From the NCBI GenBank assembly GCA_030148805.1, contig JASBSS010000017.1, positions 1-64,000 on the forward strand: a stretch of 64,000 nt of DNA. Reading direction: 5' to 3'. Origin of the DNA: Thiogranum sp. (GTDB lineage Bacteria > Pseudomonadota > Gammaproteobacteria > DSM-19610). Shown piece after piece: positions 37,985 to 61,564 of this stretch (positions are counted from its first letter, which is position 1; every line of letters starts with the position of its first letter). Both the position numbers and the translations under genes were made by a program. The notes beneath the pieces are model-generated. The model worked only from the letters and a program-made list of their open reading frames with translations, was not told where the DNA came from and did not search any database.

Positions 37985-38294
37985 TGGCCGGCCCGATTGT
38001 ATAAATACGGACACACCGACGTGGCTGTAGTGTTCCAGATTGCTACATTTCTCGGACACTCTGTGACCCGTTTGCGGCACACGGCGGTGGCACAGGGCGC
38101 TCCTGTCCCGGGTCCGGCGCGGCCGGGATCTCCTCCCGAAAAGGTAAAAAATACAAAGCTTTTGTGTGGATTTGGTCACCCACCCCAGTGATCCCCCGAC
38201 AGCCGCCAGCGCCGGGGGCGCCTTCCCCTGCGCCTACACCCGGTATGGATCCTGCTCTTACATTCCCAACCCTGTCTACCTAACGGATGCTCCC
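37985..38294 (+). promoter_or_regulatory. Intergenic region upstream of the sigma-54 activator operon
   Basis: No gene in about 310 nt. It holds a TGTATAAAT (-10-like) at 37999-38006 and GTGTTCC-N17-GGACAC, an inverted repeat, at about 38030-38058. It also has CTGTGAC at 38061, which resembles the CTGTGACAG sites at 56.6 kb, and ACAAA-GCT-TTTGT at 38153-38165. A GG-N10-GC sigma-54 promoter is not present. Confidence 0.4.
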
Positions 38295-40259
38295 ATGGAA
38301 ATATCAAAAGCGCTTTCCCGGCACCGCGAGTTTGTACTTTCCATCGCCTCGGGCGAAATCAGCGACGCCTCGGTGGATTCACGCATCTCCGCCTCCTGGC
38401 GTCGCTGTATCCAGGACTATGGGCTGGATCCGAAGGACCCGCCCGAGACCGTCGACGTCGGTGCCGACGTGCTGCAGGAGCACCAGGAGCGCCTCGGCAG
38501 CCTGCTGTCGATCGCCAGGGTGGAGATGACCAACCTCTATCAGCAGATCGCCGGCAGCGGCCACTCCATCATGCTCACCGACAATTCCGGCCTGGTGCTC
38601 AACTACGTCGGCGACCCTGCGTTCGGCGCCACCGCGGCGGCGGCGGGCCTGCGCGAGGGCGCGCAGTGGACGGAAAGCCTGCAGGGGACCAACGGGATGG
38701 GCACCTGCCTGGCCGACGGCGCCCCGGTGGTGGTGCATCAAAACGAGCATTTCTTCGGCAGCAACCTGCTGTTGACCTGTACCGCCGCGCCGATCATGGA
38801 CGCCGACGAGCGCGTGATCGCGGTGCTCGACGCCTCCAGCGAGTCGGCCCGTGCCCAGCAACACACCATGGCCCTGGTCAACATGTCCGCCAAGATGATC
38901 GAGAACCGCGTCTTCCTGTCGAGCTTCAGGAAGCACTTCATCCTTCACTTCCACAGCCGCGCCGAGTTCATCAACACCCTGGGCGAGGGTCTCATCGCCT
39001 TTCGCGGCGATGGCAGCGTGTTGGCCGCCAACCGCAGCGCCCTGTTCCAGCTGGATTACAAGGGCCTGGCCGAAGTCCGCGCGCGCTCCATCGAAGAGCT
39101 GTTCGACAACGCCTCCACCCTGCTGAAACATTCGCTCCGCCCGCTGCTCAAGGCGGTGCCGATCTACGAGACGCGCCACGCCCACCGCTTCTTCGGCATC
39201 GTGCAGGTCCCGGACACCCGGCAGGTGTTCGGTCTCAGCGCGGCACCGTCGGCGCGCGACCCGGGCAGCGTCGCGAGCAAGGGGCACGAGGCGCTGAATG
39301 CGTTGGAGTTCGGCGACACCCAGATGCGCCGCAACATCCGCGTCGCCCAACGCGTCCTGGACCGCGAAATACCGATTCTGGTGACCGGCGAGAGCGGCAC
39401 CGGCAAGGGCGTGTTCGCCAAGGCGCTGCATCTGGCCAGCGAGCGCGCCGACAAACCCTTTGTCGCCATCAATTGCGCCTCCATTCCGGAGGCACTGATT
39501 GAAAGCGAGCTGTTCGGTTACAAGCCCGGTGCGTTTACCGGGGCCAGCCGACGCGGCAACGCCGGAAAAATCGTCCAGGCCGACGGCGGTACGTTGTTTC
39601 TCGACGAGATCGGCGATATGCCCTTGTCGTTGCAGGCGCGCCTGCTACGCGTGCTGGAGGAAAAGGAAGTCGTCCCTCTCGGCGGTCACGAACCGGTTTC
39701 GGTGGACCTGCGCGTCATCAGCGCCACCCACCGCGATCTGCGGGCCATGGTGACCGAGGGCGAGTTTCGCGAGGACCTGTTCTACCGCTTGCAGGGCATC
39801 AAGATCTGTCTGCCCGCGTTGCGCGAACGCGCCGACAAACGCGAACTGATCCGTCGCCTGATCGCGCTGGAGAACATCGACCGCCAGCCCCCCGTGGAGG
39901 CCGACGAGGCGGTGGTCGACCAACTGGCCAGCCACGACTGGCCCGGCAATATACGCCAGCTGCGCAATGTCCTGAAAACACTGCTGGCGCTGTCGGAAAG
40001 CGGCCATCTCGTCCACAGCAGCCTGATCGGGGAACTGCTGTGGGATGTGCGCGACACGGCCCAAGCCGGCGTGCAGCAGGAATCGCTCGGCGACGACCGG
40101 GAAAGCTCGGACCCGCTCAGAAACGCCGAACGGGAGGCCTTATTGCAGGAACTGGAGCGCCACCACTGGAACGTATCCAGCACCGCCCGGCGTTTGAAAC
40201 TGAGTCGCAACACCCTGTACCGGAAGATGAAACGTTGTCGTATCGCGTTACCGAAATGA
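38295..40259 (+). CDS. AcoR-type sigma-54-dependent transcription activator
   Basis: A 654-residue enhancer-binding protein. The N-terminal half has [18 protein letters not shown], the typical AcoR start. A GAF domain follows at about 80-190 ([33 protein letters not shown]). The AAA+ domain has Walker A GESGTGKG (about 365-372), the sigma-54 contact GAFTGAS (about 412-418) and Walker [14 protein letters not shown] Fis-type HTH ends the protein ([20 protein letters not shown]). All parts are intact. It heads a plus-strand run of C1-cofactor genes. The likely targets are the sigma-54 promoters at 56.56 and 56.78 kb. Confidence 0.9.
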
Positions 40260-40789
40260 GCCGCCGCGACGGGCTCGTCCCGGATAAGGAGACTTCAAGC
40301 TTCTCCGTCAGCGTGAACCCCGGTGCGCTGCATTTCAACGCCGCGCATTTCATCACCGTCAACGACAGCTGCGAGAATCTGCACGGGCACAACTTTCACG
40401 TCCGCGTCAGCGCCTCCGGGCGGAGCGATGGTGACGCCTTGGTGATCGATTTCGTCCTCCTGAACCGGCTGGCGGAGCAGATCTGTCGCCAATTGCACGA
40501 CAAGATCCTCCTGCCGGCCACCAGCGGCGAAATGGACATCGAAGAGCGCGACGATTGCTATCATGTCCAGGGCCACGGCAAGCGTTTCATGTTTCCGGTG
40601 GAGAACTGCTGTCTGCTGCCGGTGAGCAACACCACCGCGGAAATGCTCGCCTGGCACATCTGCAACCTGCTCGGGGAAGCGCTCGGTCGACGCAACGCGC
40701 TGCAAAACGTGCACGAGCTCGAGGTCGCCGTCGAGGAGGCCGACTGCCAATGGGGCATCGTCCGGCAACGGGTCGGCACGCATGGGTAA
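40256..40789 (+). CDS. 6-pyruvoyltetrahydropterin synthase-like protein (archaeal type)
   Basis: PTPS/QueD superfamily, 177 residues. The zinc ligands are H in FNAAHFITV and both H in CENLHGHNFHVRV, which also supplies the catalytic Cys. A longer insert (VEERDDCYHV-type region) and FPVENCCLLPVSNTTAEMLAWHI resemble the archaeal group used in methanopterin synthesis. Start ATG 40256 overlaps the activator's TGA (ATGA). A role in making the 6-hydroxymethylpterin of H4MPT is inferred from neighbours. Confidence 0.8.
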   Translation: MSRRDGLVPDKETSSFSVSVNPGALHFNAAHFITVNDSCENLHGHNFHVRVSASGRSDGDALVIDFVLLNRLAEQICRQLHDKILLPATSGEMDIEERDDCYHVQGHGKRFMFPVENCCLLPVSNTTAEMLAWHICNLLGEALGRRNALQNVHELEVAVEEADCQWGIVRQRVGTHG

Positions 40790-41339
40790 GTCCCGCCATG
40801 CCCGCCTGGCCTGGGCGATCACCGGCTCCGGACACTACCTGCACGAGTGCATGGCGCTGATGCGCGACTACGGCGAGGTCGATCTCTTCCTCAGCGCGGC
40901 CGCCGCGGAGGTGCTCGCCATGTATGGCTACCGCCTGGACGAACTGCGAGCCGAGATACGGGTGTTTCGCGACAACAGCGCCAGCTCGGTGCCGGTGGGC
41001 CTGTTCTACGAAGGGCGCTATCACTCCCTGGTGATCGCCCCGGCGACCTCGAACACCATCGCCAAATGCGCCTATGGCATTTCCGACAGCCTGGTCACCA
41101 ACATCTTCGCCCAGGCCGGCAAATGCCGCCTGCCCGCGATCGTGTTCGCCTGCGATACCGCCCCGGAGCTGCAAAGCCAGGCGCCACGGGAAACCGTCAC
41201 GGTCTATCCCCGACCCATTGATCTGGACAACGTCACCCGGCTGAGCCGCTTCGAGCAGACCTGCATCGTCTCGGATGTGGAGCAGCTGCGACAGGCGCTC
41301 GGCCTCGCCTCGCCATGCCTGAACGCATCGCCTTCCTGA
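40782..41339 (+). CDS. dmrB: Dihydromethanopterin reductase-like flavoprotein
   Basis: A 185-residue flavoprotein of the archaeoflavoprotein/DmrB group, expected to reduce dihydromethanopterin to H4MPT with an electron donor. The FMN-binding core is visible: ARLAWAITGSGHYLHECM, LVIAPATSNTIAKCAYGISD and SLVTNIFAQAGKCRLP. ATG 40782 overlaps the PTPS gene by 8 nt. The enzyme would finish the pterin made by the neighbouring genes. Other flavoprotein roles cannot be excluded. Confidence 0.75.
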   Translation: MGKSRHARLAWAITGSGHYLHECMALMRDYGEVDLFLSAAAAEVLAMYGYRLDELRAEIRVFRDNSASSVPVGLFYEGRYHSLVIAPATSNTIAKCAYGISDSLVTNIFAQAGKCRLPAIVFACDTAPELQSQAPRETVTVYPRPIDLDNVTRLSRFEQTCIVSDVEQLRQALGLASPCLNASPS

Positions 41340-42709
41340 CCGGTCGCCTCGCCGAGCCCAGTCTGCGCCGCGTGCTCGACGCCCTGGCGGACAAGAGCTT
41401 CGAGGCGGACGTGCGCCAACTGGGGATCAACGTCGCCGGGCTGCTGACCAGCGACATGATCCGCCGGCGCATGCCGCGCGCCGAGGCCGATCGCATCATC
41501 GTGCCGGGGCGCTGCCGCGGCGACCTCGACGCGCTGAGTCGCCATTACGGCGTACCGGTGCTGCGCGGACCCGACGATCTGAAGGATCTCCCGGCCTACC
41601 TGGGCCACGGCGCGCGGACGCCCGACCTCAGCGGCTACGACATCCGCATCTTCGCCGAAATCGTCGACGCGCCGGCACTCGACATCGCCCAGATCCTGGC
41701 GCGCGCGCAGCGCTATCGCGACGCCGGCGCCGACGTCATCGACGTCGGCTGCCTGCCGGACACGCCGTTTCCGCACTTGAGCGAAACCGTCCGGGCCCTG
41801 CGCGACAGCGGTTTCGTGGTCAGCGTGGATTCCATGAACAGCGCCGAGCTGCTCGCCGGTGCCCGCGCCGGCGCCGACTACCTGCTGAGCCTGAACGAAC
41901 AGACCCTCTGGGTGGCCGACGAGGTGGAGGCCACCCCCGTCCTGGTGCCGACCGGTGATGGGGGTCTGGCGTCCCTGCTGCGGGCGATGGAGCGCCTGGA
42001 TCTGGCCGCGCGACCCTATCTCGCCGACCCCATACTCGACCCGCCGCTGCTCGGGTTCACCGAGTCGATCGCCCGCTATCGCGAGCTTCGTCGCCGGCGC
42101 CCGGAGGTCGAGATGTTGCTGGGCGTGGGCAACGTCAGCGAACTGCTCGACGCGGACACCGCCGGTGTCAACGCGCTGTTGGCGGCCATCGCCGCCGAAC
42201 TTTCGATCCACAATGTGCTCACCACCCAGGTCAGCGCCCACGCCCGCCGGGCCGTGCACGAGCTGGACGCGGCCCGCCGCCTTGTCCATCGCGCGCGCCT
42301 GGACGCATCGCTGGCGCGGGATATCGACCCGCGCCTCCTGGCGCTGCACGAACGCCATCCGTTTCCCTACCAACCCGAGGAGATCGCGCAGACGGCGGCG
42401 GCCGTGCGCGACCCCAGCTACCGGATCGAGGTCAGCGCGGCGGGCCTGCATCTGTATAACCGCGACGGCCTGAAAAGCGCCCACGATCCGTTCACGCTGT
42501 TCGCGCAACTCTCGCTCGGCACGGACACCGGGCACGCCTTCTACCTCGGCGTGGAACTGGCCCGCGCGCAGATCGCCTGGCAGCTCGGCAAGCGCTATGT
42601 GCAGGACCAGGAGCTGCGTTGGGGTTGCGCCAGCGACACGCCGGCCGAGGACCTGGAGTCCCAGGCGGCGCCCGGCGCGACGCGCCTTGAAACGGGAACG
42701 CGTCCATGA
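41315..42709 (+). CDS. Dihydropteroate synthase-related protein (H4MPT cluster type)
   Basis: A 464-residue protein with a TIM-barrel pterin-binding region: IFAEIVDAPALDIAQIL, DAGADVIDVGCLPDTPFPHL, GFVVSVDSMNSAELL and NVLTTQVSAHARRAVHELD. It is the larger DHPS-like protein found in bacterial H4MPT clusters. It probably acts on a pterin intermediate, although coupling of the pterin in methanopterin is by beta-RFA rather than pABA alone. ATG 41315 lies 25 nt inside the dmrB 3' end. The exact reaction is not established. Confidence 0.7.
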   Translation: MPERIAFLTGRLAEPSLRRVLDALADKSFEADVRQLGINVAGLLTSDMIRRRMPRAEADRIIVPGRCRGDLDALSRHYGVPVLRGPDDLKDLPAYLGHGARTPDLSGYDIRIFAEIVDAPALDIAQILARAQRYRDAGADVIDVGCLPDTPFPHLSETVRALRDSGFVVSVDSMNSAELLAGARAGADYLLSLNEQTLWVADEVEATPVLVPTGDGGLASLLRAMERLDLAARPYLADPILDPPLLGFTESIARYRELRRRRPEVEMLLGVGNVSELLDADTAGVNALLAAIAAELSIHNVLTTQVSAHARRAVHELDAARRLVHRARLDASLARDIDPRLLALHERHPFPYQPEEIAQTAAAVRDPSYRIEVSAAGLHLYNRDGLKSAHDPFTLFAQLSLGTDTGHAFYLGVELARAQIAWQLGKRYVQDQELRWGCASDTPAEDLESQAAPGATRLETGTRP

Positions 42710-50630: not shown

Positions 50631-51554
50631 TCAGGTCGCTAGTAGTGAAACGGAGGAAGTCGGACCCGAACCGGCCTCCGTCATTGAAATGCACGCATGC
50701 GGGTGCGCACGCAGATCGTCATGCAGTTGCCTGACGAACAAGGTGGCGACGACCAGATCGGCCGTGGTGCCCGGATTGATGCCACGCTGCTTGAGGGTGA
50801 GATCGAACAGCGCCAGAGCGCCCATCATCGATTCGGGATCCGGCTGCTGCTCCAGAAGCCCGCCAAGACGTTCGGCCTGCGCGCGCAGCCCAGTGGCCAC
50901 CGCCTCACCGTGCTTGCGCCGCACCAGACTGTCGCCGAACTTCGCCAGCAACGCCAGATAGAGCGAGACGATCCCCCAGGACTCGCTGTGCCAGCGAGCT
51001 TGGGCGGCGCGCAGATAGGGCTCGGCGAAATCGAAAACGTCGCAATAGCCGTGCACGTACTGGAAGGCGATGCGATCCCACTCGATGGCCGGCCTCATCG
51101 CCTCGAGCAGGCTCACCGGCGGAGCGCCGTGACGGATGTCGTAGCGCGGCGCGCTGTTCATGCCGCCGGGCCGGGCCTGGCGGATCGCGGCGTAGACCAG
51201 CCGGGTGTCCTCGGCATCCAGAGCTTGCAAGGTGTGGTCGAGCGCCGCGCGCAGCGACCCCGGCCCGCAGGCGCCGAGCGCGGCGTGCGCGATCGGCGCG
51301 CACAACAGGACAATGCCGAGGTTGGTGTTACAGCCGACGCGGTTGCGGGTCGCGTCGATCGCGCCGCGGACCCGCGCGCCGACGCGCCATCCCGGCGTGC
51401 ACAACGACGGCGCGGCGGCGCGCGCGCTGCGCCTGAAGTCCTCGACGCGCATGCCGTGACCGTCGGCGTAGATGCTGACGTTGCCGGGCTTCAGGGCCGA
51501 CAACTCCGCCTGGCAGGCGCCCAACAGGGCTTGTTGCACCCGCCCCGGATTCAT
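50631..51554 (-). CDS. CitG/MdcB-like (triphosphoribosyl-dephospho-CoA synthase family) protein
   Basis: A 307-residue protein of the CitG-like family that recurs in bacterial H4MPT clusters. It has LLGACQAELSALKPGNVSIY, a family start, GCNTNLGIVLLCAPIAHAAL, and LKQRGINPGTTADLVVATLF. CitG enzymes transfer ribosyl units, so a role attaching a ribose or phosphoribosyl part of the pterin is plausible but unproven. ATG 51554 overlaps the ATP-grasp stop by 4 nt. The family reaction in these clusters is not established. Confidence 0.7.
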   Translation of the reverse strand: MNPGRVQQALLGACQAELSALKPGNVSIYADGHGMRVEDFRRSARAAAPSLCTPGWRVGARVRGAIDATRNRVGCNTNLGIVLLCAPIAHAALGACGPGSLRAALDHTLQALDAEDTRLVYAAIRQARPGGMNSAPRYDIRHGAPPVSLLEAMRPAIEWDRIAFQYVHGYCDVFDFAEPYLRAAQARWHSESWGIVSLYLALLAKFGDSLVRRKHGEAVATGLRAQAERLGGLLEQQPDPESMMGALALFDLTLKQRGINPGTTADLVVATLFVRQLHDDLRAHPHACISMTEAGSGPTSSVSLLAT

Positions 51555-52453
51555 GCGCTCACCGCCACGGGTGGCGTGCACAGATGGCGCGCGCAGAAAT
51601 CGTCCACCAGCGCCTGGGCGATATCCACGCCACAAACCGACTGCAGTCCTTTCCAGGCCGGAATGCTGTTGATTTCGATCACCTGCAGCACGCCGCCCGC
51701 GTCGCGCATCAGGTCGACACCCGCGTAGTCCATGCCCACCGCCGCGACCGCGGTCTCGGCGGTCTGCTCGAGCTCGCGGTCGTTGACCACGGCGACGCAA
51801 CGGGCGCCCTGGGCGACGTTGTTGATCCAGCCGCGCCCGGTACGCCGCATGCTGGCCACCGCCTTGCCGTTGATCACGAAGACGCGCCAGTCGCCGCCGC
51901 CGTCGAGGTAACGCTGCAGGTAGTAAACGCCCTGGTACTCAGCGGCCGGCGGCAGGCGATCGCGCCGCGACAGACGTCGCAGACCACGACCCTGGGAGCC
52001 GAACAGCGGTTTGATCACCAGGCGCTGGCCGGCAGCGCGCTCGCGCCGCCAGACGGCCTCGGCCCGGGAGCGCTCGGCGCTCACCCAGGTCGGCGGCGTC
52101 GCCACCCCCGCGTGGTGCAGCAGCAGGCTGGTCATGCCCTTGTCGACGCTCTTTTCGATCGCCCTGGCACTGTTGTAGACCGGTACCCCCACGGCCTGCA
52201 GCGCGTGCAGGACGTCAAGCGCGAGCACCACCTGCTCCAGGGTGCCGCCCGGCACACCGCGCACGAACACCCCGTCGGGCAAGCGCGCGGCGAAACCCGG
52301 CAGGTGCAGGCCGGCGGTGTGGCCGGCCAGATCGATGCCGCAGCGGGCGAGCGAGACCTGGCGCACCACGCAGTCACGCCGGGCAAAAGCGCGCCGCAAG
52401 CGCTCGGCGTGCCAGCCCCGGTCCTCGCTCAGCAACGCGATCCGCAGGCTCAT
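51551..52453 (-). CDS. RimK-type ATP-grasp ligase (MptN-like)
   Basis: A 300-residue ATP-grasp enzyme: MSLRIALLSEDRGWHAERLR, VDKGMTSLLLHHAGVATPPT, QRLVIKPLFGSQGRGLRRL (ATP site), and DYAGVDLMRDAGGVLQVIEIN (metal site). MptN in methanogens adds glutamate to tetrahydromethanopterin, and relatives modify coenzyme F420. A glutamate ligase on H4MPT or methylofuran is the best guess. ATG 52453 overlaps the mch stop by 4 nt. Confidence 0.72.
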   Translation of the reverse strand: MSLRIALLSEDRGWHAERLRRAFARRDCVVRQVSLARCGIDLAGHTAGLHLPGFAARLPDGVFVRGVPGGTLEQVVLALDVLHALQAVGVPVYNSARAIEKSVDKGMTSLLLHHAGVATPPTWVSAERSRAEAVWRRERAAGQRLVIKPLFGSQGRGLRRLSRRDRLPPAAEYQGVYYLQRYLDGGGDWRVFVINGKAVASMRRTGRGWINNVAQGARCVAVVNDRELEQTAETAVAAVGMDYAGVDLMRDAGGVLQVIEINSIPAWKGLQSVCGVDIAQALVDDFCARHLCTPPVAVSA

Positions 52454-53457
52454 CGCGTCGCTCCGAAGGCCTGCTCCAGCAGCGCGGAGTTCAGCGCGCC
52501 GGCGTGGAAACTGCGCCCCGAGTCGAGGCACGAGACGGTCACGGCGGCCGGGCTGAACAGCAGCGGGTCGATCTGGAAGAAATCGCAATGATAGTCGGTG
52601 AAGATATCGCTGAAGGGTTTACCGTAATCCCGCGAACCGCTGCTGGGCAGGGCCCGGGCGAGATCGGCGGCCTCGGCGTCGCTGCCGGAGACGAACAACT
52701 GCACCTGCCCGCCATAAAGGATCGCGTCGTTGGTACGCCCCATGGCGGTGATGAAATCCGGCGCCGGCGGCGGCAAGGGCGCGCTGCCGAGACCGTCGAC
52801 GATCTGGGTCAGGGGAAAACCGAGACTGTGCGCCTTGTGCAGCGCGACCTCGAGTACGCGCGCCACCACCTGGACCACACCGGCGAGGCTGCGCGTGGGC
52901 GTCAGGATCAAGGTGAGCGCGTCGCTGTCGATGCCGCAATCGGCGGCGATTTTCGCCGCCAGTTCCGGCGGCGGAAACCTGTCGACTTCGAGCACCAGAC
53001 AGCCCGCCTGGCTCTGGTCGACGTAACCGAGCTCGGAAAAAAGAACCTCCTTGCGCGCCAACGCGCGCGCCGGTCCCGAACCCATGGCGTGATAGGCTTC
53101 TCTCCCCTCCCCCAGCGACAGACTCCAGCCCGCGTATTGACTGGCCAGGCAAGCGATCACCGGGTCGCAACTGCGCACATTCAGGCGCCACGGCCAGGTG
53201 GGCGTGCTGTGATCGCACTCAAGGCTGACCTCGCCCAGCCCGCCCATGCAGATTTCCGCGATGCGCAGCCCGCCGCTGAGGCCGCCCGGGGTATCGATGC
53301 CGGCGTCGATGACCGTGCAGCCGTTCGCCAGACGCCGGTTGGTGAAGCGCAGTCGGGAAGCCTCTGCTTTCAACCGCTTGAGCAGTCGATTGGCCGCCGC
53401 GTTGACACTATGGCCAGACGCCTCCTGGGTCGTGTCCTGGCGCCGGCTTATTGGCAT
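52450..53457 (-). CDS. mch: Methenyl-H4MPT cyclohydrolase
   Basis: Hydrolyses methenyl-H4MPT to formyl-H4MPT. It shows TPGGLSGGLRIAEICMGGLG, NVRSCDPVIACLASQYAGW, GSGPARALARKEVLFSELGY and TAMGRTNDAILYGGQVQLFV, all strong family segments. From ATG 53457 it has 335 residues, a little longer than usual. A GTG at the NAAANRLLKRL position could be the true start. It overlaps neighbours at both ends, with 10 nt shared with the unknown ATP-grasp gene. Confidence 0.93.
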   Translation of the reverse strand: MPISRRQDTTQEASGHSVNAAANRLLKRLKAEASRLRFTNRRLANGCTVIDAGIDTPGGLSGGLRIAEICMGGLGEVSLECDHSTPTWPWRLNVRSCDPVIACLASQYAGWSLSLGEGREAYHAMGSGPARALARKEVLFSELGYVDQSQAGCLVLEVDRFPPPELAAKIAADCGIDSDALTLILTPTRSLAGVVQVVARVLEVALHKAHSLGFPLTQIVDGLGSAPLPPPAPDFITAMGRTNDAILYGGQVQLFVSGSDAEAADLARALPSSGSRDYGKPFSDIFTDYHCDFFQIDPLLFSPAAVTVSCLDSGRSFHAGALNSALLEQAFGATR

Positions 53458-54614
53458 GCCTGCACCCGTTCGCCCCCAGCGCCCGCGCCGCTGGCCTGTT
53501 GTTCCAGCGCCATCGCCTGGCGCAGGCTCTGCGCCTGTTTCAGCAGCCGCCAGCGTAAACTGCCGGCGCTGCCGCCACTGGCGTGCAGCGTGCACAGCGG
53601 TTCGCCGGGCCCGATGTGGCTGCCGGCGGCCGGCAGGTCGCTGCACCCGGGCGGCCAGGCGAAGCCCGCCGGTACGCGCAGCGGCGCGGTGGCGTAGACC
53701 GGCATGTGCGCCCGTCTAAACGAGACGGGCGCCAGCTGGGGCAGGCGGCGGCCGCGACACCCCTGCAAGTGGGCGGCGAACAGACCGGGGCCGGGAGCGG
53801 CCTGGTACAACTCCAGCGTGGCGGTCGGCCGGGCGTTGAGTTCCAGCACCTGAAAGCCCTCGCCGCTGACCACCAGATCCAGGCCGTTGAGGCCGCGCAG
53901 ACCCCACCACTGCACGAGTTCGTGAATCGCCAGGCGGACTTCCTCGAACATCGCCGCCCCCAGCGGGTATCGGGAGACCGCGCCGCCGTAGAGATAGGGT
54001 TGCTGACGGGTGGCGAAGGCGCGCCACTGCTCACTGACACCGAGCACCGTGCTGTCGCGGCCGTTGCCGAGAAACGCCACCGAGACGACGTCGCCGTGCA
54101 GCTGCTGTTGGAAATAATCGCCCGCCGCCGCTGGCGAGCGCGCCGCTCTGACCTGCGCCCCGCCGCAGGAGCCGGCGCGCTTGAGCAGCCACCCGTCCGG
54201 GTTCGGCGGCGGCGCGAAGCTCACCCGCGGATGCGCTATGCCCAACCTGTCGAGCACGGCAAAGAAGTTGCGCGGGTCGCACACGCGTGCCAGGGTCTCG
54301 GGGTCGTTGCCCAACAGGGCGCGACCCCGGGCGAGCGCGGCCAGCGTCTGCGGACAGGCCTCGAAACCGGCGCCGTAGACCAGTCCGGCGCAACGACGCG
54401 GCGGCACCAGTCGCTGGGCCGCCGCGAGCAGGCGCTCGGCGTCGAAACCCGCGCTGCTCGACCCCACCCGTGCCCAGCCGCTGGCCCAGCGGCGCGTGTC
54501 CTGATCAGCGAACACATCCACGGCCGCGGCGGCAAAGCCGCAGCGCTGCGCGGAGTGTGCCAGGGCGCGCGCCGAGAGCGCGGCGATCAGCAGTTTCTTA
54601 TGGCTTCGCCACAT
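53448..54614 (-). CDS. ATP-grasp protein of H4MPT clusters (function unknown)
   Basis: A 388-residue ATP-grasp-like protein. The N-terminal LIAALSARALAHSAQRCGF and GFAAAAVDVFADQDTRRW start a Rossmann-like domain. LLGNDPETLARVCDPRNFFA, WLLKRAGSCGGAQVRAA and NGLDLVVSGEGFQVLELNAR form the ATP and metal sites. A C-terminal lipoyl/biotinyl-like stretch is LCTLHASGGSAGSLRW. It lies between mtdB and mch and overlaps both. The family is regularly found with mch but has no assigned reaction. Confidence 0.68.
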   Translation of the reverse strand: MWRSHKKLLIAALSARALAHSAQRCGFAAAAVDVFADQDTRRWASGWARVGSSSAGFDAERLLAAAQRLVPPRRCAGLVYGAGFEACPQTLAALARGRALLGNDPETLARVCDPRNFFAVLDRLGIAHPRVSFAPPPNPDGWLLKRAGSCGGAQVRAARSPAAAGDYFQQQLHGDVVSVAFLGNGRDSTVLGVSEQWRAFATRQQPYLYGGAVSRYPLGAAMFEEVRLAIHELVQWWGLRGLNGLDLVVSGEGFQVLELNARPTATLELYQAAPGPGLFAAHLQGCRGRRLPQLAPVSFRRAHMPVYATAPLRVPAGFAWPPGCSDLPAAGSHIGPGEPLCTLHASGGSAGSLRWRLLKQAQSLRQAMALEQQASGAGAGGERVQACQ

Positions 54615-55503
54615 AGTCCTGCGCCGTCGCGAATGCCCGCTGAAAGTCCACGTACAACGGTGACTGCGCCTCCAGCATGTCGCTGAGCAGTCGGTGTTGC
54701 ACCTGGTACTTGAGGTTGCCCACGGCGAGCGCGCCGATGCCGACGGCACCCGGCACGGCCGTCAGCGGTTCACCATCGTCATGGCATTCGATCCCCTCGA
54801 TTCCCAGGGGCGGCACCGCGTTGAGATCGCCGGCCACCTTCAGGTCAGTCGCGCTGGCGAGCTGAGCGGCCGACAACACTTGGACCCCAGCCGTGGCGGT
54901 GGCAAAGATAATGTCGGCGCGGGCTAGCAATTCCCGCTTGCGCGCATCGCTGCTGCCGTCGGCCGCTTCGAGTTCCACCGCGTAACGCTGACGACACAGG
55001 CGCGCGGTTTCCAGGGGGTGTTCTCTTCCCTTGTGGCCGACCAGACAGACCTCGGCACCGGCGCGCGCGGCCAGCACGGAGGCGGCCACGCCGACCGGAC
55101 CGGTACCGCCGAAGACCATCACGCGCAGACCCTGCAACGCACAGCCGTGCACGCGCGCCAGCTGGCGTTCCACCGAGGCCACCAGCGCCGCCGCGGTGGT
55201 GAACGCACCACTGGGATCGGCGAACACGGAGACCTCGAACGGCGGCACCATGGCCGCGCGTGCCGCCGCGAGCATATCCAGCGCCAGAGAGATGTCGCGC
55301 CCGCCGATGTACAAACCGGTGCGCCGAACGCCTTTCGGCCCGCGGGAGAATATCGCGTCCTGTACCAACGCCGGCACGTCGTCAAGTTGCACGCCGGTAT
55401 AGGGCGTGACGCTATGCCATCCGGCGTCGCAAGCCATGTTGACATCGAACGGGCTGACGTGTTTTTCCGGTGTCAACAGATGCAGCAGGTAGGGCCGGCT
55501 CAT
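54598..55503 (-). CDS. mtdB: NAD(P)-dependent methylene-H4MPT dehydrogenase
   Basis: Oxidises methylene-H4MPT to methenyl-H4MPT. It has 301 residues. LLTPEKHVSPFDVNMACDAG, TPYTGVQLDDVPALVQD and GLYIGGRDISLALDML are family segments. The Rossmann motif MVFGGTGPVGVAASVLAARA follows, then VAGDLNAVPPLGIEGI. ATG 55503 overlaps the mptG stop by 4 nt. MtdB rather than FolD type is clear from the pterin-binding N-terminus. Confidence 0.93.
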   Translation of the reverse strand: MSRPYLLHLLTPEKHVSPFDVNMACDAGWHSVTPYTGVQLDDVPALVQDAIFSRGPKGVRRTGLYIGGRDISLALDMLAAARAAMVPPFEVSVFADPSGAFTTAAALVASVERQLARVHGCALQGLRVMVFGGTGPVGVAASVLAARAGAEVCLVGHKGREHPLETARLCRQRYAVELEAADGSSDARKRELLARADIIFATATAGVQVLSAAQLASATDLKVAGDLNAVPPLGIEGIECHDDGEPLTAVPGAVGIGALAVGNLKYQVQHRLLSDMLEAQSPLYVDFQRAFATAQDYVAKP

Positions 55504-56546
55504 GCATAGGTCCTCGGGTGCACGTTCTGCCGCGCGCCGGCCACGGATCTGTTGGCCGTCGTGGCGAGAGTGATGCGGCCGCCATGATTGCGCGCGCCGA
55601 CCGTCTCGAAGTGCAGGTTGGGACGCTCGGCGAAGCGCCGTTGCAAGGCCGCCGACAAGGCTTGTGCTCGGTCTTCGTCGGGCAGCAGGGCAAAGCCGGT
55701 CGGTCCCCAGGAACTCTGGCCGATGCCCGTCACCCCCTGCGCCCGCAGCCAATCCAGGGCCGCGGCCACCGCGGGGCTGGCAAAACGCCCGGACTGAGCC
55801 GGGGCGAAATAATCCCCCACCACTTGTTGCAGCTCGCCGATGGCGGCGCTGAAGCCGGCGAAATCCGCCTCCGCCAGCGCCGGCAACGCCTGCATCAGCA
55901 CCAGCCGGCACAGCGCGGCGGCGCCGGCGGCGGGAAACGGGGCCAGCGCGCGAAAGGCCGACGACTCCCGCTGGCCGTGAATGCCGTTGGCGGCGCGGTC
56001 GAACACCAGCAGGAAACGCCAGGCTGTCGGAAAATCCCGCCGCAGCAACAACGGCGGGGGCTGCGCGGACTCACCGCGTCCGCCATCGAGCAGAAAGCCG
56101 CCGCCGTCGAAGGCACCGATGCCGATCCCGGAACGTCTGCCGCGCCCGGTCAGCGTCGCCAGCTCGCGGCTATCGAGTTCGAGACCGTAAAGGCGCGCCA
56201 GGCCGCCGGCCACCGCCAGTGCCAGCTGGGTACCCGAGCCCAGGCCCGCGTGATCGGGAATGGCCCGGGGGATCGCGATATCGACGCCGCTGGGCAAGCC
56301 GAGCGTTTCGCTCAGCGACGCGGCAACGGCCAGGGTGCGCGCCACCGCGTGCCGGGGACCGGTGACCTTCAGCGTCCTCGCCGGAGCCAGGGTCAGTTGG
56401 GTGGAGAGCGTGTCCAGCGTTACGCCGAGGCTGCCGAAACGGCGCCCGAGACCGCCGTTCAGGTCGATGAATCCCAGATGTAGACGGGCCGGCGCCTCGA
56501 CGCTGACAGAGGTGCACACCGGCTGCTTGATTGGCTGAACGACCAT
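55500..56546 (-). CDS. mptG: Beta-ribofuranosylaminobenzene 5'-phosphate synthase
   Basis: First committed step of methanopterin synthesis: condenses pABA with PRPP, losing CO2. GHMP-kinase fold: VSVEAPARLHLGFIDLNGGL, DHAGLGSGTQLALAVAGGLA (glycine loop), GIGIGAFDGGGFLLDGG and GIGQSSWGPTGFAL. The start is uncertain. ATG 56546 gives 348 residues, but a sigma-54 promoter just upstream would start transcription almost at that ATG. GTG 56519 (MCTSVSVEAPARLH) gives a more typical N-terminus and a short leader. It heads the minus-strand operon mptG-mtdB-orf-mch-orf-orf-fae-PTPS. Confidence 0.92.
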   Translation of the reverse strand: MVVQPIKQPVCTSVSVEAPARLHLGFIDLNGGLGRRFGSLGVTLDTLSTQLTLAPARTLKVTGPRHAVARTLAVAASLSETLGLPSGVDIAIPRAIPDHAGLGSGTQLALAVAGGLARLYGLELDSRELATLTGRGRRSGIGIGAFDGGGFLLDGGRGESAQPPPLLLRRDFPTAWRFLLVFDRAANGIHGQRESSAFRALAPFPAAGAAALCRLVLMQALPALAEADFAGFSAAIGELQQVVGDYFAPAQSGRFASPAVAAALDWLRAQGVTGIGQSSWGPTGFALLPDEDRAQALSAALQRRFAERPNLHFETVGARNHGGRITLATTANRSVAGARQNVHPRTYA

Positions 56547-56557
56547 GGACTGGGCAT

Positions 56558-56575
56558 TTGCAACTGGCATGCCAG
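56558..56575 (-). promoter_or_regulatory. sigma-54 promoter for the mptG-mtdB-mch-fae operon
   Basis: The minus strand reads CTGGCATGCCAGTTGCAA. The -24 element TGGCATG and the -12 element TTGCA are separated by 4 nt, and GG and GC are 10 nt apart, as sigma-54 requires. It is one mismatch from TGGCACG-N4-TTGCA. Transcription would start near 56548. Confidence 0.75.
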
Positions 56576-56624
56576 CCGCGCAAAGGCCACTTTCCGGCGG
56601 AAATCCGCGCGCGTGCGCAACGGG

Positions 56625-56690
56625 CTGTGACAGCGATGACACACAGTGTCCTCACTGCTGCGTACCAGGCTGACAGGCAACTGTGACAGT
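56625..56690. promoter_or_regulatory. Candidate enhancer sites between the two sigma-54 promoters
   Basis: The palindrome CTGTGACAG occurs at 56625-56633 and again within ACTGTGACAGT at 56680-56690. Between them is GACAC-ACA-GTGTC (56638-56650). They lie about 50-115 bp upstream of the minus promoter and 95-160 bp upstream of the plus promoter, a normal enhancer distance for both. A further hairpin CGTCCG-TTCG-CGGACG is at 56699-56714. Confidence 0.55.
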
Positions 56691-56783
56691 CGCTGTTCCG
56701 TCCGTTCGCGGACGATGCCGATCACCCGGAGTGCCGCCGAGGTTGGCAGCGATATCGCGGGTATCAACGTCATCGGCCTAGGG

Positions 56784-56800
56784 TTGGCACGATCCCTGCT
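56784..56800 (+). promoter_or_regulatory. sigma-54 promoter for the fhcBADC operon
   Basis: TTGGCACGATCCCTGCT: a perfect -24 element TTGGCACG, then CTGCT as -12 (one mismatch to TTGCT), with GG and GC 10 nt apart. The start point would be near 56811, leaving an 80-nt leader before fhcB. Confidence 0.75.
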
Positions 56801-56890
56801 CCCGCTGGGAGGGTATCGCCACGGCCCGCGCCGCCGAGCGCGGGCACGCCGGCACACTCAGGCGCATTGACAGCAACAAGAAGCCAGCCC

Positions 56891-58174
56891 ATGAACCGAC
56901 AATCCACCGCCGAGCCGTTACAGGATATCGTCTGTCCCTTTTGCGGGCTGTGCTGCGATGACCTGTCTGTCACCCGCGCGGGACAGGAGCTGGTGATCGA
57001 CACCCCCTGCCCGCGCGCGCGCGCGGGATTCGCCGCGCCCGGCGCCGACGCCGCGAACGGCACCGATGCGCTACCCCAGATCGCGGGCACGCCCTGCACG
57101 CTGGATGACGCCGTCGCCTACGCCGCCCAGTTGTTGGGCGCCGCCCACCAACCCCTGTTCGCCGGCCTGGGCACCGACGTGGCCGGCGTGCGGGCCTTGT
57201 TGCGGCTCGCGGATCGTTGCGGCGCCAGCTTCGACCACATGAACAGTACCGCCATGCTGCGCAACCTGCTGGTCTTGCAAGACAGCGGCTGGATGACGAC
57301 CACGCTGGGCGAAGCGCGCAACCGGGCCGACGTGTTGCTGCTGTTCGGCGGCGGCGTCGAACGCAGCGCCCCGCGTTTCTACGAGCGACTGTTCGGCGCC
57401 GGCGAGACCTTGTTCGGCCGCCCGCGCAGGGCGCGCGAACTGATCATTGTCGGCGAGGGCGAGGCGCGCCCCCCGGTCGAGGAGTCGGTGCGCACGACGC
57501 GGCTGCACTGCGACACCCGCCGCCTGGGTGAGGTCGCCATGGCCCTCCGCGCCTTGCAGCGGGGCGCGCACCTGCACCCGAGCGGCGTCGCGGGCATTGC
57601 CCTGGAACCACTGCGGGCGGTGTTGGATCGGTTGCGATCGGCCGACTATGGGGTGATCGCGTGGACGGCGGCCGAGCTGGATTTCCCTCACGCCGAACTC
57701 GCCGTCCAGGCTTTTTGTGAACTGGCCACGGCACTCAATGAGACCACCCGCTGCGCCGCGCTGATGCCCGGCGGGGACAATGCCGAGCATACCCTCGCCC
57801 AGGTGGCGACCTGGCAGACCGGCTACCCCACGCGCGCCAGTCTTGCCGCCGCCAGACCCGATTTCGATCCCATCCGCCATGACAGCGCCCGCCTGCTGCG
57901 CGAGGCGGAGGCCGACGTCCTGCTGTGGGTGTCGGCCTTTGACCGCCACCGCACACCGCCACCGTGCCAGGTTCCCGCCATTGTGCTCGGCCGCCACGGG
58001 ATGCGCCCGGCCTCGCCGCCCGCGGTCTTCATCCCGGTGGGAACACCCGGCATCGATCACCCCGGCCACGTCTTCCGTTGCGACGGCGTCACCGCGCTGC
58101 CACTGCGGGCGCTGCGCCACAGCGTACTGCCGCCGGTCAGCGACACGCTGCAGGCCGTGCTCGCCGCCCTCTGA
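56891..58174 (+). CDS. fhcB: Formyltransferase/hydrolase complex subunit B
   Basis: FwdB-related subunit of the Fhc complex, which converts formyl-H4MPT to formate through formylmethanofuran. It has 427 residues. The N-terminus has DIVCPFCGLCCDDLSV, the cluster-like motif retained from formylmethanofuran dehydrogenase, then CPRARAGFAAP. In bacteria this subunit is known to lack redox function, and the overall short length here agrees. ATG 56891 (MNRQSTAEPLQD) was chosen over an ATG 24 nt upstream. First gene after the plus-strand sigma-54 promoter. Confidence 0.88.
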   Translation: MNRQSTAEPLQDIVCPFCGLCCDDLSVTRAGQELVIDTPCPRARAGFAAPGADAANGTDALPQIAGTPCTLDDAVAYAAQLLGAAHQPLFAGLGTDVAGVRALLRLADRCGASFDHMNSTAMLRNLLVLQDSGWMTTTLGEARNRADVLLLFGGGVERSAPRFYERLFGAGETLFGRPRRARELIIVGEGEARPPVEESVRTTRLHCDTRRLGEVAMALRALQRGAHLHPSGVAGIALEPLRAVLDRLRSADYGVIAWTAAELDFPHAELAVQAFCELATALNETTRCAALMPGGDNAEHTLAQVATWQTGYPTRASLAAARPDFDPIRHDSARLLREAEADVLLWVSAFDRHRTPPPCQVPAIVLGRHGMRPASPPAVFIPVGTPGIDHPGHVFRCDGVTALPLRALRHSVLPPVSDTLQAVLAAL

Positions 58175-58188
58175 TCCGGTAAACCCAG

Positions 58189-59859
58189 ATGCTCATCAAA
58201 CTCACAGCCGGCACTATCTACGACCCCGCCAACGGCGTCGACGGCGAAGTCCGCGACCTCTATATCCGCGACGGGCGCATTGTCGCGCCGCCCGCCGAGA
58301 CCGAGCGGGTCAGCGTCGAGTACGATCTGCGGGGCAAGGTCGTCATGGCGGGCGCCATCGACCTGCACACCCACATCGGCGGCGGCAAGGTCAACCTGGC
58401 GCGCGGTCTGCTGCCGGAGTTCTGCCGCGACGCTCACTACGCGCGCGGCGAGCTGACGCGTTCGGGTTGCGGCCTGGCGACGCCTTCAACGCTGGTGACC
58501 GGCTATCGTTACGCGCAAATGGGCTATACCGCGGCCTTCGAGCCGGCGGTGCTGCCCGTCAACGCCCGCCAGGCGCACATGGAGATGGCCGATACGCCAA
58601 TCCTCGACACCGGCGGCTACGCCATGCTCGGCAACGACGACTTTCTGCTGCGCCTGCTGCGCGAGGGCGCCGCCCAGCCGCTGATCAACGACTATGTCGC
58701 CTGGGTGTTGCACGCCACCCAGTGCCTGGGCATCAAGGTCGTCAACCCGGGTGGCATCAATGCCTTCAAGTTCAACGCCCGGGCCCTTGACGTGGACGAG
58801 CCCAACCCCTACTACGAAGTCACCCCGCGCAGCATCGTCAACCGCCTGGCGCGCGCCCTGCACGAACTGGGCGTGGCGCATCCGCTGCATGTGCACGCCA
58901 GCAACCTCGGGGTGCCGGGCAACTTCCGCAGCACCCTCAAGACCATGGGTGCCGCCGACGGCCTGCCTTTGCACCTGACGCATATTCAATTTCACAGCTA
59001 CGGCACCGAAGGCGAGCGCGGGTTCTCCTCGGCGGCCGCGGAAATCGCCGAAGCCATCAACGCCAATGCCAACATCAGCGCCGATGTCGGTCAGATCATG
59101 TTCGGCCAGACGGTGACGATTTCCGGCGACACCATGCACCAATACAACAACCGCCGTCACGCCCACCCGCGCAAATGGGTCTGTAGCGACATTGAATGCG
59201 AGGCCGGTTGCGGCGTGGTGCCTTTCCGTTACCGCGACCGCAACTTCGTCAATGCCATGCAGTGGGCCATCGGGCTGGAGATCTTTCTCATGGTCGACGA
59301 CCCGTGGCGGGTGTTTCTCACCACCGACCACCCCAACGGCGCGCCTTTCACCAGCTACCCTCACCTCATCCGCCTGCTGATGGATCGCAGCTTCCGTGAG
59401 GACATGCTGCGCCAGGTCCACCCGCAGGCCGCCGCGCACAGCCGTCTGTCGGGGCTGACCCGGGAGTACTCGCTCTATGAGCTGGCGATCATGACGCGCG
59501 CCGGGCCGGCGCGGATCCTCGGCCTCAGGGACCGCGGCCATCTCGCGGCCGGCGCCTTTGCCGATATCGCTGTCTACACCGACCAACCCGACCGGGAACA
59601 GATGTTCGCCCGCCCCGCCTATGTGTTCAAGAACGGCGAACTGGTCGTGCGCGAGGGCGAGATCTGCGCGCTAACCCGCGGTGGCACCCACGCGGTGAAA
59701 CCGGAGTTCGACCGCGGCATCGAGAAACGGCTGCGGCGCTATTTCGAGCGCTACCATACCATCAGGCTGAACAACTACCGCATCAGCGACGACGAGATGG
59801 CCGAGGGCATCGGCAGCCCGATCATCGCCGCCAAGTGCGCGCCGCGGGTGGACGCGTGA
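58189..59859 (+). CDS. fhcA: Formyltransferase/hydrolase complex subunit A
   Basis: Amidohydrolase-fold subunit that hydrolyses formylmethanofuran to formate. It has 556 residues. The metal site HxH is in AIDLHTHIGGGKVNLARG. Further ligands come from HPLHVHASNLGVPGN, LHLTHIQFHSYG and FLTTDHPNGAPFTSYPHL (Asp). GGINAFKFNARALD gives the carboxylated-Lys region. ATG 58189 is 14 nt after fhcB and overlaps fhcD by 4 nt. Confidence 0.95.
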   Translation: MLIKLTAGTIYDPANGVDGEVRDLYIRDGRIVAPPAETERVSVEYDLRGKVVMAGAIDLHTHIGGGKVNLARGLLPEFCRDAHYARGELTRSGCGLATPSTLVTGYRYAQMGYTAAFEPAVLPVNARQAHMEMADTPILDTGGYAMLGNDDFLLRLLREGAAQPLINDYVAWVLHATQCLGIKVVNPGGINAFKFNARALDVDEPNPYYEVTPRSIVNRLARALHELGVAHPLHVHASNLGVPGNFRSTLKTMGAADGLPLHLTHIQFHSYGTEGERGFSSAAAEIAEAINANANISADVGQIMFGQTVTISGDTMHQYNNRRHAHPRKWVCSDIECEAGCGVVPFRYRDRNFVNAMQWAIGLEIFLMVDDPWRVFLTTDHPNGAPFTSYPHLIRLLMDRSFREDMLRQVHPQAAAHSRLSGLTREYSLYELAIMTRAGPARILGLRDRGHLAAGAFADIAVYTDQPDREQMFARPAYVFKNGELVVREGEICALTRGGTHAVKPEFDRGIEKRLRRYFERYHTIRLNNYRISDDEMAEGIGSPIIAAKCAPRVDA

Positions 59860-60752
59860 ATCGCCACGGCATCGTGATCGAGGATACCTTTGCCGAGGCC
59901 TTCGGCATGCAGGCCACGCGAGTGATCATCACCGCGCCGGAGCCGCGCTGGGCCCGCGAGGCCGCCGTCTCGATGACCGGCTTCGCCACGTCGGTCATCG
60001 GCTGCGGCGTGGAGGCCGGCATTGAAACCGAACTCGCCCCCGAGGCCACCCCGGACGGACGCCCCGGCGTCTCGGTGCTGCTGTTCGGCATGTCCACCAA
60101 GGCGATCGGCAAGCAGCTGGAGAAGCGCGTCGGACAGTGCGTGCTGACCTCGCCGGGCAGCGCCGTGTACGCCGGCATGTCGGCGGGCGAGCGCGTGGAT
60201 CTGGGGAGGAAGCTGCGCTACTTCGGCGACGGCCATCAGATCTCCAAACTCATCGGCGCCAGACGCTACTGGCGCCTGCCGGTGATGGATGGCGAATTCA
60301 TCTGCGAGGAATCCACCGCTTGCACCGCCGCGGTGGGCGGCGGGAATTTTCTCGTCCTGGCACGCTCGCAGCGCCAGGCCCTGCGTGCCTGCGAACGCGC
60401 CGTGGCGGCGATGCGCCGGCTGGAGAATGTCATCCTGCCGTTTCCCGGCGGCATCGTGCGCTCCGGCTCCAAGGTCGGCTCCAAGTACCCGGCGCTGCCG
60501 GCGTCGACCAATCATCTTTACTGTCCGACCCTGCGCGGCGTGACGGACTCGCGGCTCGCCCCGGAGATCGGCGCGGTACTGGAAATCGTGGTCAACGGAC
60601 TGAGCGACGAAGACGTGCGCCGGGCACTGCGGGTGGGGATCGAATCGGCCTGCGCCGCGGGCCGCGAGAGCGGGGTCGAGCGCATCTCCGCCGGCAACTA
60701 CGGCGGCAAGCTGGGCAAGTTCCACTTCCCGCTGCACGAGGTCATGGCATGA
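59856..60752 (+). CDS. fhcD: Formylmethanofuran:H4MPT formyltransferase (Fhc subunit D)
   Basis: Transfers the formyl group from H4MPT to methanofuran. It has 298 residues, close to archaeal Ftr. It shows VIEDTFAEAFGMQATRVIIT, FATSVIGCGVEAGIE, QCVLTSPGSAVYAGM and PFPGGIVRSGSKVGSKYP, all strongly conserved. Start GTG 59856 gives a GTGA overlap with fhcA, preferred to GTG 59835. Confidence 0.95.
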   Translation: MNRHGIVIEDTFAEAFGMQATRVIITAPEPRWAREAAVSMTGFATSVIGCGVEAGIETELAPEATPDGRPGVSVLLFGMSTKAIGKQLEKRVGQCVLTSPGSAVYAGMSAGERVDLGRKLRYFGDGHQISKLIGARRYWRLPVMDGEFICEESTACTAAVGGGNFLVLARSQRQALRACERAVAAMRRLENVILPFPGGIVRSGSKVGSKYPALPASTNHLYCPTLRGVTDSRLAPEIGAVLEIVVNGLSDEDVRRALRVGIESACAAGRESGVERISAGNYGGKLGKFHFPLHEVMA

Positions 60753-61564
60753 GCCCCATGGTCGTGACGCTGCGCGATCCGCCGGCCCGGCGCATCGATC
60801 TGTCGCCGCTCTCGCCCCAGCGCCTGCAACATCTGCGGCGCGAGGCGATCGGGCGCATCCCGCTGCAGTGCGGCAACCGGCGCTATCTGCTGAGAGATCT
60901 TTTCACCCTCGAAGGCGATGACCCGGGCACGCTGGTCATCCGCAACACCGGCGCCATTCTCGACGGCATCGGCGCGTTCATGCGCGCTGGCCGCATTCGC
61001 GTGGAGGGCGACGCCGGTGACTACGTGGGTCTGGGCATGGCCGGTGGCAGCATCGACGTGCACGGCGATTGCGGCCACTGGCTGGGCAGCGCCATGACGG
61101 CCGGTCGTATCCGCGTCGACGGCGACTGCGGCGATTTCGCCGGCGGGGCCCGCCCCGGGGAGCGGCGCGGCATGGCAGGCGGCACCCTGGTGATACGTGG
61201 CCGCGCCGGCGACCGCCTGGGCGAGCGTATGCGTCGCGGACAGATCCTGGTCACCGGCAGCGTGGGCGACTACTGCGGCGCGCGCATGCTCGCGGGCACC
61301 ATTGCCGTCATGGGCCAGGTCGGCGTGGCGCCCGGTTACGGCATGCATCGCGGTACCCTGCTGCTGCGACAGCCCGCGACGCTGACCGCGACATTCGCCG
61401 ACTGCGGCGTCCACGAGCTGGACTATCTGCGACTGCTGTTCGCCGCCTGGCGCGAACTGGGCCACGGCGGCAGCGCTTTCGCCGACGCCGGCGTGCGCGC
61501 GCGGCGCTACGTCGGCGATCTGGCCACGGGAGGCCAGGGCGAGTTGCTCGTGCCGCCCGACTAG
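60749..61564 (+). CDS. fhcC: Formyltransferase/hydrolase complex subunit C
   Basis: FwdC-related subunit with the repeated G-x-x-x-G right-handed beta-helix. The repeats can be seen as AGDYVGLGMAGGSIDVHGDC, GHWLGSAMTAGRIRVDGDC, GERRGMAGGTLVIRGRAG and GDYCGARMLAGTIAVMG. It has 271 residues and holds the formylmethanofuran channel together with FhcA. ATG 60749 overlaps the fhcD stop by 4 nt. Last gene of fhcBADC. Confidence 0.93.
   Translation: MSPMVVTLRDPPARRIDLSPLSPQRLQHLRREAIGRIPLQCGNRRYLLRDLFTLEGDDPGTLVIRNTGAILDGIGAFMRAGRIRVEGDAGDYVGLGMAGGSIDVHGDCGHWLGSAMTAGRIRVDGDCGDFAGGARPGERRGMAGGTLVIRGRAGDRLGERMRRGQILVTGSVGDYCGARMLAGTIAVMGQVGVAPGYGMHRGTLLLRQPATLTATFADCGVHELDYLRLLFAAWRELGHGGSAFADAGVRARRYVGDLATGGQGELLVPPD

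Follow-up and report, generated by a model that had tools for sequence, protein, structure and literature searches.

The spacer between the divergently transcribed mptG and fhcB genes of Thiogranum sp. is probably a divergent sigma-54 control region with a dedicated GAF-AAA-Fis activator and a binding element between its two promoters, through which a C1 signal would switch both flanking operons of the H4MPT pathway. It was studied in the first 64,000 nt (positions 1–64,000, forward strand) of contig JASBSS010000017.1 from assembly GCA_030148805.1; this whole stretch is called the window below. We observed the sites themselves, their conservation, the surrounding gene content and the co-occurrence of sites with an activator gene. 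A preliminary description of this DNA had proposed that sigma-54 controls both halves of the pathway, a proposal now supported by conservation in gamma- and betaproteobacteria, by the opposed pair of sites, by an encoded RpoN, by a matching activator and by a positioned motif.

The bacterial H4MPT C1 pathway set is complete, with mptG, mtdB, mch and fhcABCD together in the window. Leftward, on the minus strand, come mptG (beta-RFAP synthase family, 55500–56546, its ATG 2 nt past the predicted transcription start), a gene for a mtdB-like methylene-H4MPT dehydrogenase (54598–55452, start approximate), an ORF with an ATP-grasp domain (53448–54749, true start internal), mch for methenyl-H4MPT cyclohydrolase (52450–53409, start approximate), a mptN-like RimK-family ligase gene (51551–52441, start approximate) and an ORF for a CitG-like protein (50631–51800, a weak match, true start internal), with a PTPS-type gene farther on. 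The rightward operon, on the plus strand, runs fhcB (56892–58174, scoring under its family's curated cut-off), fhcA (58189–59859), fhcD (59835–60752, true start some codons in) and fhcC (60761–61564, start approximate). Past the window end the same contig carries genes for SBP56 (methanethiol oxidase family), SCO1 and folE2.

Both sites lie in the spacer where the earlier account had placed them, one facing left and one right, each with 10 nt from GG to GC. The predicted promoter of the mptG operon is on the minus strand at 56559–56575 (CTGGCATGCCAGTTGCA, read 56575–56559), with its −24 GG at 56573/56572 and its −12 GC at 56561/56560. That of the fhcBADC operon is on the plus strand at 56784–56800 (TTGGCACGATCCCTGCT). 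The two share GG-N10-GC at −24/−12 in a TGGCAC-N5-TTGC context. In sigma-54 promoters the GC usually occupies −13/−12; by this rule the starts fall at about 56548 and 56811, the same positions as first predicted, and the fhc transcript would have a leader of about 81 nt. Under an approximate sigma-54 matrix based on the published consensus, the spacer sites score 19.9 and 18.7, the top two values in the window. The next best, 16.1, is inside fhcA, where matches span 15.6–16.1.

RpoN is encoded in the genome. Across its 3.78 Mb the pattern TGGCAYGN4YTGCW has 25 matches, versus 6 for a reversed-pattern control, so two opposed matches within 226 bp are very improbable by chance. Several of the other matches sit before flagellar-, pilin- or ABC-transporter-like genes (identities read from translations alone), which suggests that the pattern picks true sigma-54 promoters here.

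Conservation was followed in mptG loci drawn from 144 relatives picked by kinship and from the best 80 of at least 559 in a named genome collection. Eleven weak GHMP-kinase matches (L046–L056) were excluded throughout. Removing L035, L075 and L126, which had too little upstream DNA, left 96 of 99 loci; among these L029 is the same locus as L058, and L033 and L093 come from the same genome. An mptG-side site was scored when a match of at least 13 bits faced mptG within −120 to +20. Such a site was present in 22 of the 96 loci; with 60 permuted matrices the count averaged 0.2 and never exceeded 2. Minus-facing sites between −700 and −100 were present in 21 of the 96 (30 permuted matrices: mean 0.7, maximum 4). 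Eighteen loci had the opposed pair, four the mptG-facing site alone and three the opposite-facing site alone. Position and orientation upstream of mptG are thus kept in relatives. Carriers include Thiodiazotropha and Ctena symbionts, Thiobacillus thioparus, Parasulfuritortus, Thiohalocapsa, one Thiodictyon MAG, Ectothiorhodospiraceae and several gamma- and betaproteobacterial MAGs. On the MptG tree, from which L029 and L045 were left out, the site label changes 8 times, at least 3 of these changes being forced by well-supported branches.

These counts bear on the alternative that the −24/−12 sites arose by chance in GC-rich DNA, or are occupied without being active, and that a sigma-70-type promoter drives the genes. 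The matches within fhcA speak for it, as does the fact that silent sigma-54 sites are known in general. We nonetheless hold it to be very improbable, given that position and orientation recur in 22 of 96 loci against a permuted mean of 0.2, mostly as pairs; in addition, no sigma-70-like promoter was found in 56300–57100, a weak argument since shuffles likewise gave 0.0.

No mptG-adjacent site (−120 to +20, at least 13 bits) was found in the sampled Methylococcus, Methylobacillus, Methylotenera, Methyloversatilis, Azospirillum or Ancylobacter loci. In the Methylotenera locus L116 a 16.3-bit site does face mptG, from a distance of about 300 bp upstream. The divergent mptG/fhc layout is common to several site-less loci: Methylococcus (L092), Methylobacillus (L066) and Azospirillum (L062) have the same gene order as the window and, unlike it, have no sigma-54 site at mptG. 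Promoter type therefore varies while the layout is constant. Two loci miss the site rule yet resemble the carriers: in L034 a 14.0-bit site lies near −186 and the enhancer motif keeps its usual spacing, and in L096 a degenerate site is in register with that of L032.

The proposed activator is encoded within the window at 38166–40259 on the plus strand, with homology beginning near residue 44 (ATG at 38295). Its product has a GAF domain, an AAA+ sigma-54 domain with Walker A and an intact GAFTGA, and a Fis-type HTH, the make-up of a bEBP. As judged from its Pfam domains, the protein shares the architecture of AcoR-type activators (GAF, sigma-54 AAA+ with GAFTGA, Fis-type HTH), from which it differs in clustering with H4MPT and pterin genes. 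None of the 25 NCBIfam models listed for the protein reached its cut-off. Downstream of the gene are a PTPS-family pterin gene ORF (40040–40789, plus strand, domain from about 40331) and a DUF6513/pterin-binding gene (41315–42709, plus strand). One or both of these neighbors adjoin the activator gene in 13 of 20 orthologue loci, window included, counting flanks of up to 1.5 kb. Two Methyloversatilis loci (L157, L158) have a 46% activator relative beside a DUF6513 gene; mptG there has no sigma-54 site. Self-regulation of the activator gene was considered and set aside: a sigma-54-like match of at least 14.5 occurs in 7 of 20 activator loci, at differing places, and the window's own locus has none.

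The activator was compared over 54 genomes (G145 being a repeat of G006, and G175 of G138), with at least 590 bits taken to mean orthologue. An orthologue was present in 18 of 21 genomes with an mptG site versus 2 of 31 without. Those two are L034 and L096, the near-carriers described above, and the site-bearing rows lacking a full orthologue are L058, L091 and L081, the last with a truncated match of 51%. Among the 144 relatives selected by kinship, the activator (at least 680 bits) occurs in 6, all of them among the 19 with MptG of at least 255 bits; a seventh genome, G044, has a 45% activator relative and no MptG at that level. After phylogenetic correction the association of site and activator was not significant: there were 3 well-supported independent pairs, on average 1.8 agreeing and 0.0 disagreeing, and with only 3 such pairs a sign test cannot reach significance. 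The link of the promoters to this one activator is correlative. Two sister loci from Thiodictyon MAGs, L080 and L112, differ jointly in site and activator orthologue and form a natural presence/absence pair.

It could be instead that the sigma-54 promoters are real and answer to another activator, for example an NtrC-type or a different GAF-AAA-Fis protein encoded in this genome, while the one in the window serves other genes. The genome has 17 matches to the activator protein at E 0.001 or better, L091 combines sites and an enhancer motif at two genes with the lack of an orthologue, and the co-occurrence is owed partly to shared ancestry. We judge this unlikely: the orthologue follows the sites and adjoins pterin genes in most of its loci, and the recurring motif described next does not resemble the NtrC site.

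The preliminary description had also pointed to repeated palindromes between the promoters, which held only in part. There are two exact copies of CTGTGACAG, at 56625–56633 and 56681–56689 (both given on the plus strand), but the spacer of the nearest relative has no exact copy, and exact CTGTGACAG was therefore rejected as a conserved operator. The copies are at best secondary sites, possibly activator half-sites. Between them lies the conserved element, a candidate enhancer-type sequence of the GTGACA-N3-TGTCAC class (TGACACACAGTGTCCT, 56637–56652, plus strand), 77 bp upstream of the mptG −24 element.

This element belongs to a motif that emerged from unsupervised motif finding in 20 spacers, with L068, L065 and L029 left out. 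The motif pairs a TGTCAC half-site with a weaker half that roughly mirrors it, and its log-likelihood is 128, versus 48–60 in 20 dinucleotide-shuffled sets. A fully palindromic model was rejected, scoring 48 against 128 for the free model; the element is described with the free model for this reason. In 13 of the 20 spacers the best match is 67–90 bp upstream of the mptG −24 element. It is 211–286 bp off in three Thiodiazotropha-type loci, in Thiodictyon L080 and in two Ectothiorhodospiraceae, the last pair being poor matches; the motif in L032 carries no weight. At 13.4 bits the window's element is a weak member, within the range attained by shuffled DNA; the 20 spacers are scored on training data, and 4 of the 20 are at or below 13.4. 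The 73 mptG upstream regions without a site gave no motif match above 10.0 bits. Shuffles of those regions, in which padding N was read as A, gave four (16.3, 12.6, 12.0 and 10.8), so lone matches of 10–16 bits, the window's included, are not significant by themselves. A separate genome-wide search for paired CTGTSACAG used gap limits of 15–45, and the window's own spacing is outside them.

Binding, activation and signal are inferred, and the following course of events is the one we favor. Sigma-54 RNA polymerase would be held closed at both promoters of the mptG/fhcB control region. The cytoplasmic activator, comprising a GAF sensor, an AAA+ ATPase and a Fis-type DNA-binding domain, would bind the GTGACA-N3-TGTCAC-type element between the promoters and open both of them upon a C1 signal, which may be methanethiol or formaldehyde derived from it. 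A single switch would thereby serve methylene-H4MPT oxidation and cofactor synthesis on the mptG-mtdB-mch side, and formyl transfer and hydrolysis on the fhc side. The methanethiol oxidase-family gene and the cluster copy of folE2 may be under similar promoters.

The position of the mptG promoter has a further consequence. In 12 of 20 loci an in-frame mptG ATG follows the predicted start by 1–2 nt (2 nt in the window), and this promoter spacing predicts that the mptG mRNA is leaderless. The first ATG is 25–41 nt past the predicted start in six loci (L074, L080, L081, L084, L091 and L034). Neither pattern fits the Thiodiazotropha-type loci L060 and L065, with L065 at 4 nt. For the 19 codons that precede the conserved core, some of them past the alternative starts, we also tallied the differences at each codon position. 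These were 6/5/11 for the window and G001 and 4/5/10 for L032 and L096; the other three pairs gave 2/1/3, 8/8/10 and 10/7/11, so that the pattern is clearly coding-like in two of five pairs. The Sinorhizobium and Leptospira maps describe leaderless mRNAs as well as sigma-54 promoters, and in the portions of those sources available here they are not tied together.

Alternatively, MptG translation begins farther downstream, for example at a GTG at +29, which would give the transcript an ordinary leader and make the ATG near +1 a coincidence. The N-terminal residues are variable, several loci have an in-frame GTG or TTG at +29 to +49, and to these come the six loci with a distant first ATG and the three pairs in which the codon pattern is not clearly coding-like. 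Even so we think it rather doubtful, in view of the recurrent ATG at 1–2 nt, the third-position excess in the window/G001 and L032/L096 pairs, and the GTA that G001 has at the place of the window's alternative GTG.

Where the formaldehyde would come from was approached through gene content. A PQQ alcohol dehydrogenase above its family cut-off is absent from 10 of the 21 site-bearing genomes, the window's included, and present in eleven; methanol as sole formaldehyde source in the window's genome was rejected on this ground. A strong SBP56 match is present in 9 of those 10 genomes, so methanethiol is the likely formaldehyde source in them. SBP56 is slightly commoner with an mptG site (15 of 21 genomes, versus 12 of 31 without, plus one partial). 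Since eleven carriers have the dehydrogenase and SBP56 is also common without the site, the methanethiol theme is not proven. SoxB above cut-off was found in 13 of 21 site-bearing genomes and in 6 of 31 others, two of the six being Methyloversatilis.

In the window's genome SBP56 (L167:1966–3339) has a weak sigma-54-like site at −160 (13.2 bits). Sites facing SBP56 occur in 8 of 16 genomes with an mptG site versus 0 of 12 others, where the 16 include the borderline G139, and the weak SBP56 relatives L196 and L197 were left out. In a separate test the enhancer motif was found upstream of SBP56 sigma-54 sites in G155 (20.2 bits), G152 (19.9), G156 (17.1) and G001 (11.8). These are 4 of the 16 site-bearing genomes; at the 12 SBP56 loci from genomes lacking the mptG site, no match reached 7 bits. 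The other 12 site-bearing genomes, the window's own included, show no such motif at SBP56, and neither the SBP56 nor the folE2 promoter of the window's genome has a match of 7 bits.

A broader reading is that one methanethiol- or formaldehyde-sensing sigma-54 regulon, found mainly in sulfur-oxidising bacteria, takes methanethiol to formate and CO2. Its members would be methanethiol oxidase, H4MPT cofactor synthesis and both H4MPT operons, with a conserved leaderless mptG mRNA arising because the sigma-54 promoter abuts the start codon. We offer this extension tentatively, at somewhat under even chances.

The mechanism proposed is an ordinary sigma-54 switch at a place where we have not found it described; what is newer is the regulon view, together with the predicted leaderless start. 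That sigma-54 control of H4MPT genes is an undescribed mode, as first suggested, fits our search, in which the accessible portions of the open-access literature held no report tying the two together; because the search covered open-access literature only, such absence is no proof. One parallel among C1 oxidation genes is the control of soluble methane monooxygenase by MmoR and RpoN. That system too pairs sigma-54 with a dedicated activator, and its target is the soluble methane monooxygenase operon rather than the H4MPT pathway (PMC5874634, PMC6778391). FhlA of Escherichia coli is, like the proposed activator, a sigma-54 activator sensing a C1 compound, but it senses formate and acts on formate dehydrogenase and hydrogenlyase genes, not H4MPT genes (PMC6540204). 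Desulfovibrio vulgaris offers another divergent arrangement, in which the two orange-protein operons share sigma-54 and a cognate regulator; the genes concerned are unrelated ones. In the transcription-unit map of Methylosinus sporium 5 the H4MPT pathway is expressed and an RpoN motif occurs in the same genome; the RpoN promoters reported there belong to nitrogen genes, and methane and central carbon genes have RpoD-type ones (PMC12403871). The mtoX gene of Ruegeria pomeroyi encodes an inducible SBP56-type methanethiol oxidase with an IclR-type regulator upstream, and the accessible part of that paper does not mention sigma-54 (PMC5739008). H4MPT terms were not found in a sigma-54 regulon comparison (PMC12316311). 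In Paraburkholderia phymatum two fhc genes are raised in bacteroids, and the sigma-54 work in the part of that paper at hand concerns other genes.

The literature searched says little on what turns on H4MPT-linked formaldehyde oxidation in bacteria other than dedicated methylotrophs. A sigma-54 switch for which an activator and an operator can be proposed makes the question testable in a named strain, Thiobacillus thioparus DSM 505. Such a switch suggests that facultative users of C1 compounds leave the pathway unexpressed until it is required; in the dedicated methylotrophs sampled, no mptG-adjacent site was found. It may also link methanethiol breakdown in the sulfur cycle to a specific regulator.

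Further sites were noted on the contig beyond the window. The folE2 gene in the cluster, a second copy in addition to one elsewhere in the genome, has a 19.9-bit sigma-54 site 83 bp upstream (L167:4438–4454, equal to contig C36, 67437–67453). It was rejected as a conserved target: among the 30 folE2 loci listed, sites were found at just two, the cluster copies in G000 and G001, where L201 has no upstream DNA and second copies in G151, G152, G139 and others are outside the set. Sigma-54-like sites at L167:6205 (14.0) and L167:6611 (15.3) lie hundreds of bases before a gene for a pyridoxal-dependent decarboxylase, perhaps the tyrosine decarboxylase of methanofuran synthesis. A 17.8-bit match to the activator motif (L167:12359–12374) is located at the start of a pyridine nucleotide-disulfide oxidoreductase ORF.
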